20,656 nucleotides of DNA, taken from a virus. Both the position numbers and the translations under genes were made by a program. The notes under the pieces were generated by a model. That model searched no databases and was not told where the DNA came from. It saw nothing but the letters and a program-made list of their open reading frames with translations. Location of the stretch: positions 1-20,656 of IMG/VR virus record IMGVR_UViG_3300021091_000503. One strand, written 5' to 3'. Below are positions 4,201 through 20,656 of this stretch, one piece after another. How positions within the stretch are numbered: the first letter of the stretch is position 1; each line of letters starts with the position of its first letter.

Positions 4201-5910
4201 ATGGCCGAGTTCGATCCCTCCCTGATTGGCGTAAACAACCCCCGGCCCACGTACAACCCCACGGGCGGGGTGGTGCAGCTTCCCGGACAGGGCGGCGCTC
4301 CGGGTGCGTACACGGTGGACCCGGGTGCGGCGATGGCCAACTACCTCAGCGCCTTCAACCCGGCGTTGATGGACCAGCTGTTCAAACTGGAGCAGGAATA
4401 CGGCACCCGGTTTCAGGATATGGACATTGCGGCTCGCAACCGCAATCTGGGTGCCTTCACCGACCTGATTGGCAATCTGACCAACACGGCTGGAAACGTG
4501 GCCCGGGACGAAACCCGCACGCAGTCCCAGTTTGAGGTGGACCGCTTTGGTCAGTTTGGCGGCGCCTCCATTGCGGCCTACATTCAGGGCAACCCCTACC
4601 TGAAGTCGGCTATGGATCGGTCGGACGCCCTTGGCGGCGTGTCCACCAATCAGGCTTACGACGCCCTTTCCCGCCAGCTTCTGGGTGGAGCTCCCAGTGC
4701 CATCAACCTGAGCCCTGAGCGCATTGCGGCAGAGCGCCTCCAGTCGGGAGGCACCCTCACCCCGCAGCAGGTGCAGGCCGAGCGGGTGGCGGCGGAGCGT
4801 GTTCGGGCTGGGCAGGTGCAGGCAGGCGAGGTGGGGGCTGGTGCCCTTGGCCAGTCGCTCTACCAGCAGGCCCTGCGCGGGCAGGAGATGAGCCCCGTGT
4901 CCGCTGCCCTCCAGCAGCAGGCCCTCCAGATGGCTCAGGCCCCGGGCTCCCTCACCGAGCAAGAGCTGCGTGCCGCCACTCAAGGTGCGCGTGAACGCTT
5001 TGCTGGCTCCGGTCGTCTGGCGGACAATGCCGCCATTGCCGGGGAGGCTCTGGCCCGGGCAGGCGTGTCCCGCGAGCGCCAGATGCAGGACCTCGCTGCC
5101 GCCCAGCAGATCAACCAGCAGCTCCTTGGTGCCCAGCAGATGGGCCAGCAGCTGGCCACGGATGTCCTGCGGACGGACATCCAGCGCCAGCAGTCGAACG
5201 TGGGCAACCAGCTTCAGGCTGGCCAGTTCAACGTGGATGCGATGCTGCGGGGAGACCTCGCCAACCAGCAGACCAACCTTCAGGCCAATCTGGCCAATCA
5301 GGATGCGTTCCTGCGGGCGGCGCTGGCCAACCAGCAGGCGTCTATGCAGGCCGACCAGTTCAACATCCAGAACGCTCAGGATGTGGGCCGGTTTAACATC
5401 CAAACTGGGATGCAGGCCGGGATGTTCAATGCGGAGAACGCCAACCGGATGGCTGAGGCCAATCGTGGGTTCAACTACACCGCCCAGCAGGACTACCTCC
5501 GCAATCTGGGCCTGCTTGGTCAGGCTACTCAGGGCCTGCGTGAATCGGATCGTGCGTACAACCTCAATCAGGTGAATACTTACGGCAACGTCAGCAATGC
5601 CGGGCTGAATGCCACGGGCTACAACACCCCCGCTCCGGGTGTGAATGCGGCGATGAACTACTTCACGCTGGGGTCCAATGTGACGCCCAATCGGACGTTT
5701 GACCCGAATGCGGGCATCAATCTGGCGGCCACCGACGCGGCCAACCTCAGCAACTACAACGCCAACATCTACTCGGCCAACAGGTCGGCTGAGGCGGCTG
5801 CGGCTCAGGCGGCTGCGGCCAGGTCGGCGGGCAAGAGCTCGATGTTCGGAAGCTTGATCGGAGCGGGTGCGTCGGCATACGGTACCTATGCCGGACTCGC
5901 CGCATTATGA
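4201..5910 (+). CDS. Virion (ejection-type) protein with 5- and 11-residue repeats
   Basis: 569 residues, rich in Ala, Gln and Asn. Three parts are visible. Residues 190-214 are five pentapeptides of the form xVxA(E/G): QVQAE, RVAAE, RVRAG, QVQAG, EVGAG. Residues 331-418 are eight consecutive 11-residue units, for example LANQQTNLQAN, LANQDAFLRAA, LANQQASMQAD, QFNIQNAQDVG and RFNIQTGMQAG. The C-terminus (MFGSLIGAGASAYGTYAGLA) is a Gly/Ala hydrophobic segment that could enter a membrane. Hendecad repeats form long right-handed helical bundles, which would suit a protein extruded through the tail. Position between fibre and ejection-type genes supports an internal virion or tail-tip role. No family name is certain. 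The stop overlaps the next start (ATGA at 5907-5910). Confidence 0.7.
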   Translation: MAEFDPSLIGVNNPRPTYNPTGGVVQLPGQGGAPGAYTVDPGAAMANYLSAFNPALMDQLFKLEQEYGTRFQDMDIAARNRNLGAFTDLIGNLTNTAGNVARDETRTQSQFEVDRFGQFGGASIAAYIQGNPYLKSAMDRSDALGGVSTNQAYDALSRQLLGGAPSAINLSPERIAAERLQSGGTLTPQQVQAERVAAERVRAGQVQAGEVGAGALGQSLYQQALRGQEMSPVSAALQQQALQMAQAPGSLTEQELRAATQGARERFAGSGRLADNAAIAGEALARAGVSRERQMQDLAAAQQINQQLLGAQQMGQQLATDVLRTDIQRQQSNVGNQLQAGQFNVDAMLRGDLANQQTNLQANLANQDAFLRAALANQQASMQADQFNIQNAQDVGRFNIQTGMQAGMFNAENANRMAEANRGFNYTAQQDYLRNLGLLGQATQGLRESDRAYNLNQVNTYGNVSNAGLNATGYNTPAPGVNAAMNYFTLGSNVTPNRTFDPNAGINLAATDAANLSNYNANIYSANRSAEAAAAQAAAARSAGKSSMFGSLIGAGASAYGTYAGLAAL

Positions 5911-6704
5911 CCTATGAGCAGAAACTCCAACTAGCCAAACTCACCGTCAAGGCCGCCCTTGAGAACTCAAGGAACCCGGCGGTGATGTGTAGTTTCGGCA
6001 AGGACAGTGTGGTGGTGCTTCACTTGGTGAACACCTTCAAACGGCTTAAGGTGATCTTCCACCGGGAGCCATTCCAGCATCACAAGTATGACTACGCCAA
6101 CCGGCTGATGAAGGAGTGGGACCTCCACGTCATTGACTACCCCCCTGCGGGGACGGCGGCAGCTGAGGTGGGACCTGATATGGAGGTGGTCAATTACTAC
6201 CAAACTGGAAACAAGACCGTCCACCTACCCACAGGGCTGAAGCACGAGGACAAGGGGCCAGACACCCTCTGTGCACTAACGGACATTTACGGGAAGCCTA
6301 CCGGCGCCATCAACTACCCATTCGATCTGGTGTTCCACGGCCACAAGTCGGTGGATAGTGACCCTATTATGGGGGACGTGCCCTTGTTCGCGGACGTGGC
6401 AATGAACATCGGGTCCCCGTCTGCGGCGTTTCCGATCAGGCATTTCACTCACGCAGATGTCTGGCGTTACATTGAGGAGAACAACATCCCCATCCACCAC
6501 GAACGCTACGAGAAGCGGGACGGGGAGTGGGTGGAGAAGGACGACAAGACGTACAACCCGGACTACATCGGGTGCTGCTACGCCTGTATGTCCAAGACCT
6601 CGGGCAATAACGTCCATTGCCCCAAGTGGGGCCTCACCGTCAGCAACGTCTCCGGCCAGCTCCGTTGGGCTCCAAAGCTGGAGGCTAGCTATTTGAAGGG
6701 GTAG
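5907..6704 (+). CDS. PP-loop ATPase / PAPS-reductase-like enzyme
   Basis: 265 residues. The N-terminus carries the PP-loop SFGKDS (residues 29-34), which binds the ATP or PAPS phosphates, followed by VVVLHL and IFHREP as in CysH-like proteins. The redox motif of true PAPS reductases (ECG-x-H near the C-terminus) is absent. In its place is a Cys cluster, GCCYACMSKTSGNNVHCPK, with Cys223, Cys224, Cys227 and Cys238, better suited to binding a metal or Fe-S centre. Related phage genes are usually labelled phosphoadenosine phosphosulfate reductase; the substrate is unknown here, and a DNA, tRNA or sulfur-transfer reaction is as plausible as sulfate assimilation. It lies inside the virion operon, overlapping the upstream stop by four bases, so it should be made late with structural proteins. 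Confidence 0.8.
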   Translation: MTYEQKLQLAKLTVKAALENSRNPAVMCSFGKDSVVVLHLVNTFKRLKVIFHREPFQHHKYDYANRLMKEWDLHVIDYPPAGTAAAEVGPDMEVVNYYQTGNKTVHLPTGLKHEDKGPDTLCALTDIYGKPTGAINYPFDLVFHGHKSVDSDPIMGDVPLFADVAMNIGSPSAAFPIRHFTHADVWRYIEENNIPIHHERYEKRDGEWVEKDDKTYNPDYIGCCYACMSKTSGNNVHCPKWGLTVSNVSGQLRWAPKLEASYLKG

Positions 6705-17279: not shown

Positions 17280-17567
17280 CTATGGCAGGGCAATCCTCAG
17301 CGGCTCTGGCTCCTTCACCAGCGCCTTGGGCCAGCCAATCATCGGCTCGGGCTCTGGCCTAGCCTTGCGGGCGGCAAGAATGGCAGCGTGCTCCTCCTTA
17401 TTGACGTAGGCCAGAAGGTAGCCCTTCCGGTTGGCCCTCTCGCCAACCATCTTCGGGTCCACCCGCAGCTCCTGCGCGATGTGCAGGGCACGGTGGCCTT
17501 CGGCCAGCATCCGGTCAATGGATGCCGCCATCTCGGGCGTGTTCAATTTGCGGTATTTTCTAGGCAT
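17280..17567 (-). CDS. Small HTH-like protein (95 aa)
   Basis: 95 residues. The N-terminus (MPRKYRKLNTPEMAASIDRM) is basic and helical, followed by LAEGHRALHIAQELRVDPKM and VGERANRKGYLLAYVNKEEH, which looks like a helix-turn-helix: ALHIAQEL, turn, DPKMVGER. The C-terminus is Pro/Glu-rich and probably disordered. It starts eight bases inside the end of the 74-residue gene, so the two are coupled. It lies directly downstream of the operator-like repeats at 17784-17839, which makes it a candidate repressor of its own operon. No family name is certain, and a role in sensing host conditions is only a guess. Confidence 0.55.
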   Translation of the reverse strand: MPRKYRKLNTPEMAASIDRMLAEGHRALHIAQELRVDPKMVGERANRKGYLLAYVNKEEHAAILAARKARPEPEPMIGWPKALVKEPEPLRIALP

Positions 17568-19615: not shown

Positions 19616-19876
19616 TTAGTTGGTGCCAGTGGGCTTGCTGCTCACCATAATGTTGCCGCCCTTCACCTCCATCGAGAAGCCAGCGGCCTCCCGGGTGCGC
19701 CGCAGCTCGGCATAGAGCTCCTTGGCGTGCAGAACAGCATCCTCCTGCTCCTTGCAGGTGGGCTCCAATTCAAACGTGGACAGGATTCCGTCGAGGATCA
19801 CCTCGGTACGGACCATCAGTTCTATGACGCACTCGATGTCGTCATTCCGGCTCTTGCTGGTAGTGTTGTTGCTCAT
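19616..19876 (-). CDS. Small acidic helical protein, first gene of the minus-strand module (86 aa)
   Basis: 86 residues from ATG 19876 (a frame extending to 19903 adds nine residues and is less likely). The sequence is charged and mostly helical: NDDIECVIELMVRTEVILDG, then FELEPTCKEQEDAVLHAKEL, then YAELRRTREAAGFSMEVKGG. No family is recognised. The start is preceded by GGTGGTGGGG with TACGGT seven bases before the ATG, and a perfect AT-rich palindrome lies 25 bases upstream, so the first gene of the module is closely controlled. Its place before the SSB-like gene suggests an early regulator or replication accessory. Confidence 0.55.
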   Translation of the reverse strand: MSNNTTSKSRNDDIECVIELMVRTEVILDGILSTFELEPTCKEQEDAVLHAKELYAELRRTREAAGFSMEVKGGNIMVSSKPTGTN

Positions 19877-19900: not shown

Positions 19901-19923
19901 CAAAAATAAAAGATTTATTTTTG
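19901..19923. promoter_or_regulatory. Perfect AT-rich inverted repeat upstream of the 86-aa gene
   Basis: The arms CAAAAATAAA and TTTATTTTTG are perfect 10-bp complements around AGA. The repeat lies 25 bases upstream of ATG 19876, stands out in a GC-rich genome, and could be a repressor site, a bent promoter element or, on the minus strand, a weak U-rich terminator. The minus-strand bases after it are GGGGAAATGG, so termination is not favoured. Confidence 0.55.
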
Positions 19924-20233
19924 AGAGGTGGGCAAGACCCTCCTTGGATGTGCTTTACGTAATTTCTTGTTGAAAAAACAGGGCATTATTCCCGTCATCC
20001 AATACGCTGGTGCTGATGCAGGAACACGGGTGCACAGTTCACCCATTGCTGGGTGAAACATCCAGACGCTGTCTGCCGAGAGACGAGGTTTCCGGTATGC
20101 TGCCGCCCGTGCTGGTAGGCCATTGCCCACGGGTTGTTCGGCGGTTCACTCCCAAAGGGAGCCTATTAAGGAGGGCTGGTGCTGTCCGTCAGGCCCTCCG
20201 CCAGAACCGTTGAGTGCTGCCTTGCGCAGGTCA
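19924..20233 (-). ncRNA. Structured non-coding leader ahead of the replication genes
   Basis: No convincing gene is present. Strong stems are packed together: TTCACCCA/TGGGTGAA (20038-20057, perfect 8 bp), GCCG+CCCGTG with CACGGG+CGGC (20102-20142, one bulge), CTCCC/GGGAG (20149-20161) and GGAGGGC/GCCCTCC (20170-20199). This is typical of a structured RNA. If transcribed from the promoter at 20240-20267, it would be a leader or RNA of up to about 350 nt before the 86-residue gene. No match to tRNA, tmRNA, RNase P or a known riboswitch is apparent. The strand is inferred from the promoter. Confidence 0.45.
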
Positions 20234-20239
20234 CCACCC

Positions 20240-20267
20240 ACCGTATCAAACCCTTCTACCCTGACAA
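20240..20267 (-). promoter_or_regulatory. Minus-strand promoter P2
   Basis: TTGTCA (20262-20267 on the plus strand as TGACAA) and TACGGT (20240-20245) are separated by 16 bases. The -35 overlaps the U-run of the terminator just upstream. Transcription would start near 20233 and cross the structured region toward the replication genes. Confidence 0.5.
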
Positions 20268-20301
20268 AAAGAAACCCTCACCCCGCTACGCAGGGTGAGG
20301 G
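20265..20301 (-). terminator. Intrinsic terminator (minus strand)
   Basis: The perfect 9-bp stem CCCTCACCC/GGGTGAGGG at 20275-20301 is followed, in minus-strand direction, by TTTCTTTTTG at 20265-20274, a good U-run. It would end RNA coming from promoter P1 at 20366-20393. In the plus direction no U-run follows, so it is directional. Confidence 0.7.
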
Positions 20302-20359
20302 CCGTGGACTAGGTGACTAATCTAGTCCGGTAGAAGAGCGACACAATGAACAACTGGCG
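20265..20359 (-). ncRNA. Candidate small RNA of about 95 nt
   Basis: Bounded by promoter P1 (start near 20359) and the terminator. It holds a 7-bp stem, GGACTAG/CTAGTCC at 20306-20328, then the terminator hairpin. Neither a start codon with SD nor a plausible peptide is visible. This may be an antisense or regulatory RNA, an attenuated leader, or an antitermination site of the replication operon. Confidence 0.5.
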
Positions 20360-20365
20360 ACTCCC

Positions 20366-20393
20366 ACCCTACCACACGATGCTGTTCCGTCAA
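20366..20393 (-). promoter_or_regulatory. Minus-strand promoter P1
   Basis: TTGACG (20388-20393 as CGTCAA) and TAGGGT (20366-20371 as ACCCTA) are 16 bases apart, with A/T-rich sequence upstream that could act as an UP element. The -10 context GTGGTAGGGTGGGAGT is almost the same as the plus-strand -10 region at 550-561 (14 of 16 bases). Confidence 0.6.
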
Positions 20394-20550
20394 GGGATTT
20401 GTTTAGAAAAGTTGGTTGATGGTTAAACACGCCATTCAGTTGCTTTTGGATGGCTAAAGCCGCCGTTATCAAGACATTTACACCTACCCCCCTAAGTTGT
20501 TTATTGTAATGGGTTTATAAATCGATTTATTTTACTATCACTTAGGTGTG
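20394..20550. other. AT-rich block with a 14-bp palindrome (origin or control candidate)
   Basis: No gene is visible. The block is much more A/T-rich than its surroundings. It contains the perfect palindrome ATAAATCGATTTAT (20517-20530) and the 7-bp inverted repeats CCTAAGT (20491-20497) / ACTTAGG (20540-20546) and ACACCTA (20480-20486) / TAGGTGT (20543-20549), so the two halves flank the palindrome. It lies upstream of promoter P1. Duplex-unwinding and protein binding would fit a replication origin; no DnaA box series was seen. Confidence 0.4.
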
Positions 20551-20579
20551 ACTCTAGGTTGCTCCCCAGCTCAGACGAA

Positions 20580-20656
20580 CCCCCTCACCCCCCAACCCCC
20601 CTCCCCCCCGCTTCGCGGGGGGAAGGGGGGCTTCAGAGCCCCCTCACCCCCCAACC
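20580..20656. repeat. C-rich REP-like element with direct repeats and a long hairpin
   Basis: CCCCCTCACCCCCCAACC occurs at 20580-20597 and again at 20639-20656, where the window ends. Between them a very stable hairpin spans 20596-20630 (C-run and G-run arms closing on a TTC loop). The CCCTCACCCC...CCCCC style resembles REP-like palindromic repeats found in bacterial intergenic regions. The hairpin at 20275-20301 has a related core (CCCTCACCC). No gene is visible in this stretch. Confidence 0.55.

Follow-up and report, generated by a model that had tools for sequence, protein, structure and literature searches.

A conserved structured RNA core behind a candidate attenuated leader at the head of a phage replication operon

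Known RNA leaders and the setting of the element

In phage P4, the prophage immunity RNA CI is processed from a leader, and the put RNAs of phage HK022 fold as two stem-loops shortly after an early promoter. In the Gifsy-1 prophage, IsrK is made as terminated and read-through isoforms from one promoter with an intrinsic terminator, and the long isoform can be bound by the short one (PMC4825925). GOLLD, ROOL and OLE belong to the large noncoding RNAs with conserved structure, and phages carry some of them (PMC12286853).

The element described here lies in a 20,656-bp uncultured virus record, the whole of which is called the window. Like the P4 CI leader it heads a replication operon, with early termination (predicted here) and internal complementary segments; unlike P4 CI, no integrase or immunity function was seen and no Rfam family matched. 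The complementary segments, helices P0 and P1 below, are present but suited to intramolecular pairing. As in HK022 put, two adjacent stem-loops stand close to the promoter, although put has neither a terminator as its second stem nor a 230-nt core. The likeness to IsrK (PMC4825925) is one promoter and one intrinsic terminator with predicted short and read-through RNAs; unlike IsrK, no antiterminator gene was recognised nearby, no sequence relation was found and a conserved core of ~230 nt follows. GOLLD, ROOL and OLE are larger and belong to known families, whereas our element matched none in Rfam. Literature searches returned no description of it.

Structural-looking genes occupy the plus strand of the window from ~0.5 to ~11.8 kb, and the replication module occupies ~20 to ~12 kb on the opposite, minus strand. 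Just upstream of its first gene, on the same strand, sits the leader element, at the head of the module as a sequence-only reading had proposed. Downstream follow a small gene of unknown function (19876-19616, 86 codons from the ATG at 19876; a 36% identical homologue holds the equivalent position in L105), a phrog_862-like gene, also of unknown function (19576-18950), a PD-(D/E)XK exonuclease gene (17213-16428) and a DnaB gene (16431-15094). The same reading had suggested early-to-late switching, which this setting does not indicate: it is the replication operon that the element precedes, and no link to late genes was found. A 34-kb contig of a relative shares the layout, with an SU10-type major capsid protein, large terminase and ThyX. 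Genes of metabolic type were also noted: the window encodes a PAPS-reductase domain (5907-6704), and a relative has genes for amidoligase, glutamine amidotransferase and ThyX (L105:2762-4703; L104:17508-18365).

Relatives were found by an IMG/VR search with the phrog_862-like protein, which gave 32 loci; further scans by pattern and by protein recovered these again and added a few contigs (L066/L089, L067 and that of L092). Every member belongs to one small group of phages, sampled in a single collection. In the close relatives L002-L009, BLASTN of the leader aligns from ~20400 inward. In the distant relatives L010-L025 (~71% protein identity) it aligns ~20204-20004 at 82-87%, a stretch downstream of the terminator that had been reported. 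The core, whole or as a cut-off part, is present in 25 contigs besides the window (26 in all), once in each of seven long contigs. L026-L033, which are more distant (37-45% protein identity), lack it, as does Phage C75C1. A BLASTN comparison of the region with 50,697 phage records gave no match. A scan of 84,980 species genomes with one pattern gave 10 matches, none credible; with covariance scores of at most 10.8 bits, we attribute them to chance. Two relatives carry tRNA genes that could be used for host guessing, a tRNA-Thr (TGT) between the phrog_862-like gene and DnaB (L092:7887-7959) and a tRNA-Asp (GTC; L089:6350-6426).

Promoter and 5′ module

The promoter lies on the minus strand at 20393-20366, with a -35 TTGACG (20393-20388), a 16-nt spacer and a -10 TAGGGT (20371-20366); a TG at 20374-20373 makes this an extended -10 (TGgTAGGGT, 20374-20366). 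Its match to consensus, 8 of 12 positions (5/6 and 3/6), is weak alone and explains why a standard scan does not list it. It becomes convincing because relatives conserve it: TTGAC[AG] (TTGAC in most), 16-17 nt, then TGnTAnnnT in nearly all, the exceptions being L014, without the TG, and L025 and L066, where the -35 is degenerate. Between the promoter and the conserved 5′ end lie 6-8 freely variable nucleotides, after which conservation starts abruptly across clades at ~20359 with CGCCAGUUGUUC or a near-identical sequence. A promoter starting transcription at ~20359 would be expected to leave such a pattern, and we infer that the transcript begins there, with the CGCCAG (20359-20354) that forms the 5′ strand of P0. 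When the 753-nt intergenic region was shuffled 400 times with dinucleotides preserved, an extended -10 promoter followed by a terminator of the kind described below arose in 0 cases, under criteria that were post hoc and somewhat favourable. Upstream of the promoter (20400-20656) resemblance to relatives ends, several of which carry a gene there, and the window end holds GC-rich repeats (CCCCCTCACCCCCCAACC...); this may be a junction with other DNA or a misassembly.

Two hairpins follow on the minus strand. P2 (20328-20306) has a stem of 7 bp, GGACTAG/CTAGTCC, joining 20328-20322 with 20312-20306, and in the window's clade shows double changes at two pairs (A-U/C-G and C-G/U-A). Other clades have a different stem there, with a (U)GUGUC-like motif in the loop (~20321-20313 in the window) that is possibly a protein-binding or loop-loop site. 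P3 (20303-20266) has the form of an intrinsic terminator: a perfect 9-bp GC stem, CCCTCACCC/GGGTGAGGG, within a 14-pair hairpin (20303-20273), then TCTTTTT ending at 20266. In 11 of 11 representatives the P3 hairpin has a folding energy of -20 to -29 kcal/mol and the T-tail scores 3.07-4.55, whereas only 0.23% of background positions reach at least 3. Several members have a broken U-tract (L010 UUUUCCGUUUCUU; L024 UUUCUGCUU), which could make termination weak. P3 varies in the window's clade by G.U steps. All 195 of 195 cells of the 5′ module pair in that clade. The folding energy of the 105-nt stretch is -50.2 kcal/mol, far below the -31.9 of its shuffles (z = -5.6, 0/200). The predicted terminated RNA would span 20359-20266, ~94 nt.

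A covariance model built from the window's clade alone finds the 5′ module at the equivalent position in six relatives: L010 (E 1.9e-6), L015, L025, L089, L011 and L024 (E 0.014). This model, R2, missed L092, whose leader homology rests on position and an exact sequence pattern. Outside the stems and the 5′ end, the sequence of the module drifts fast between clades. Much of the sequence-only reading thus holds: promoter, 7-bp stem, GC stem and U-run are all where it placed them, no plausible gene overlaps the interval, its ~95-nt noncoding unit agrees with the predicted ~94 nt, and the check that it named, conservation in related phages, comes out in its favour, with covarying stems.

Its coordinates were right and its extent was not, for the conserved element runs from ~20393 to 20002, much longer than reported. 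Nor is the ~94-nt RNA self-contained, since the partners of P0 and P1 and the best-conserved ~230 nt lie beyond the terminator. P1 (20344-20243) encloses P2, P3 and the U-run, its strands GUGUC (20344-20340) and CUUCUACC (20336-20329) pairing with GGUAGAAG (20260-20253) and GAUAC (20247-20243). All P1 cells in the window's clade are paired, with one G-U/G-C change, although the helix hardly varies there (12 of 13 pairs invariant) and is weak or different in other clades. In P0, CGCCAG can pair with CUGGCG (20204-20199) in 14 of 14 aligned sequences; this pairing is suggestive, the changes being C-G to U.G only, that is, wobbles and not covariation. CUGG could alternatively take as its partner a CCAG, likewise invariant, at the core's 3′ end, and we speculate that two exclusive partners would suit a switch. 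Through P0 and P1, bases ahead of the terminator pair with conserved bases past it. No hairpin was found that would compete with the terminator, and P0 and P1 would form only after read-through.

The structured core

Directly after the terminator, at 20231-20002 on the minus strand, lies a noncoding structured RNA of ~230 nt (model R1, cmsearch 269 bits), recognised by identity and covariation. Its nucleotide identity in distant clades is ~82-87%, against ~71% for the neighbouring replication protein, and roughly 60% of its positions are invariant. The covariation analysis covered 14 distinct sequences and 33 pairs; paired cells make up 98.1%, compared with 35-49% for slid partners. Changes on both sides occur at 8 pairs, making 39 such cells versus 11.8 in shuffles, and the covariation score is 0.253 versus 0.136; as the sequences are related, the shuffle counts are not probabilities, and the slid controls, which keep that relatedness, give 0-3 double-change cells. 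The helices with double changes occupy alignment columns 34-39/59-64, 105-109/126-130 and 189-195/200-206. Wobbles in the well-aligned helices of both core and 5′ module are G.U and not A.C, as expected for a minus-strand RNA.

The evidence for the core is comparative: the 336-nt stretch 19930-20265 folds only moderately more stably than shuffles on either strand (z about -1.3), so energy alone would miss it. A coding explanation was rejected, as none of the reading frames stays open throughout the members and the indels do not come in triplets, which argues against a conserved protein. RNAalifold proposed a long-range GGGAGUGA/UCGUCUCUC helix; a local hairpin, CUCC-UU[U/C]G-GGAG, was preferred because it agrees better with the length changes seen in L010, L018 and L025. 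A weak second R1 match in the window (17281-17326, 15 bits) was judged to be chance. Searching Rfam (4227 families, E up to 1) with the window and L010, L024, L025 and L092 gave no match in the element; elsewhere there were only chance matches (miRNA and similar families) and one tRNA.

That the core changes so little while neighbouring proteins drift to ~70% identity or less points to strong constraint on RNA shape or binding. With an uncatalogued core and a conserved promoter-terminator unit side by side, possible control of a phage replication operon at the RNA level can be tested directly, and further members can be sought with the present alignment and covariance model as a seed.

Explanations for the element

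We favour, with confidence that is about evenly balanced, reading the element as an attenuated 5′ leader of the early/replication operon, with a partial stop, read-through and a structured core. A promoter lies upstream on the leader's strand, and a conserved GC hairpin with U-run stands before the first gene. On this reading a host-type extended -10 promoter would start transcription at about 20359, and the first ~94 nt would fold into P2 and P3. A share of polymerases would stop near 20266 and release the short RNA; the remainder would read through, allowing P1 and P0 to form and adding the core, and would go on into the replication genes. The leader module would in this way set the amount of replication mRNA, and the core may do the sensing or binding, its partner being a protein of phage or host, or else RNA polymerase. 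More tentatively, the core may represent a new class of structured RNA that decides between stopping at the terminator and expressing the replication genes; polymerase-modifying antitermination RNA, riboswitch-like sensor and ribozyme are the kinds we consider.

The arrangement of the parts bears on how independent they are. In L024, L025 and L089 an ORF of 67-68 codons lies between terminator hairpin and core (L024 ~260-470), homologous among the three (QVHW...GNR[VI]FRKQK.GPR), and its expression from the leader promoter would need read-through. L092, a more distant relative, has a leader with a canonical terminator (CCCUCUGG...CCAGAGGG UUUCUUUUUU) and neither the core nor a CCAG at the leader 5′ end. 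The terminator unit can therefore stand without the core, and the two may have separate jobs; wherever upstream sequence suffices, no core was seen without a terminator unit. The sequence-only reading had offered a stand-alone small RNA or an attenuated leader, and the L092 module fits either. A stand-alone RNA of ~94 nt, acting in trans beside a second, independent core element, would suit L092, the exact framing by promoter and terminator and the ORF that parts module from core. We nevertheless think it unlikely, since it has no known target, its sequence outside stems and 5′ end drifts fast between clades, and P1 and P0 have their partners across the terminator.

Alternatively, the element may be a single structured noncoding RNA of ~360 nt, from the 5′ end through the core, working as an RNP or in trans in the manner of other large ornate RNAs of phages, with P3 a structural hairpin only. 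The capacity of the 5′ end to pair with the beginning of the core in each of the 14 aligned sequences, the loss of the P0 CCAG motif from core-less L092 and a core conserved far above neighbouring proteins fit this. We judge it unlikely, because the T-tail is kept in all members, an ORF can be inserted between the halves and no terminator is seen after the core, so that such an RNA would need processing. A put-like RNA that modifies RNA polymerase in cis to pass downstream terminators would account for the pair of neighbouring stem-loops immediately after an early promoter, the strongly conserved core sequence and the lack of a recognised dedicated antiterminator gene; it is quite improbable given that the second stem is itself a terminator, and the Rfam search showed no likeness to put. 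That the hairpins act as DNA, in a replication origin or packaging site, appears highly improbable: the element does adjoin replication genes, is single-copy per genome and is very highly conserved, yet its minus-strand wobbles are G.U pairs instead of A.C, an oriented promoter lies just upstream and a repeat search saw no iterons.

Ribosome-mediated attenuation through a leader peptide was considered for the attenuated leader and rejected, as the start codon is not conserved: a frame ending in the core begins with ATG in most of the L010/L015 clade and has no start in the window, L002, L004, L005, L007 or L009. An 18-codon frame (MVWLRPVQGGSWAYWRGA) with an ATG after AGAAGG was noted at the core start in L010, L014, L015, L018 and L019; in the window's clade it has no start codon except in L003 (GTG). 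Outside the core and just before the first replication gene, an A/T-rich inverted repeat, CAAAAATA/TATTTTTG (19901-19923), is retained in the window's clade only and is possibly an operator.
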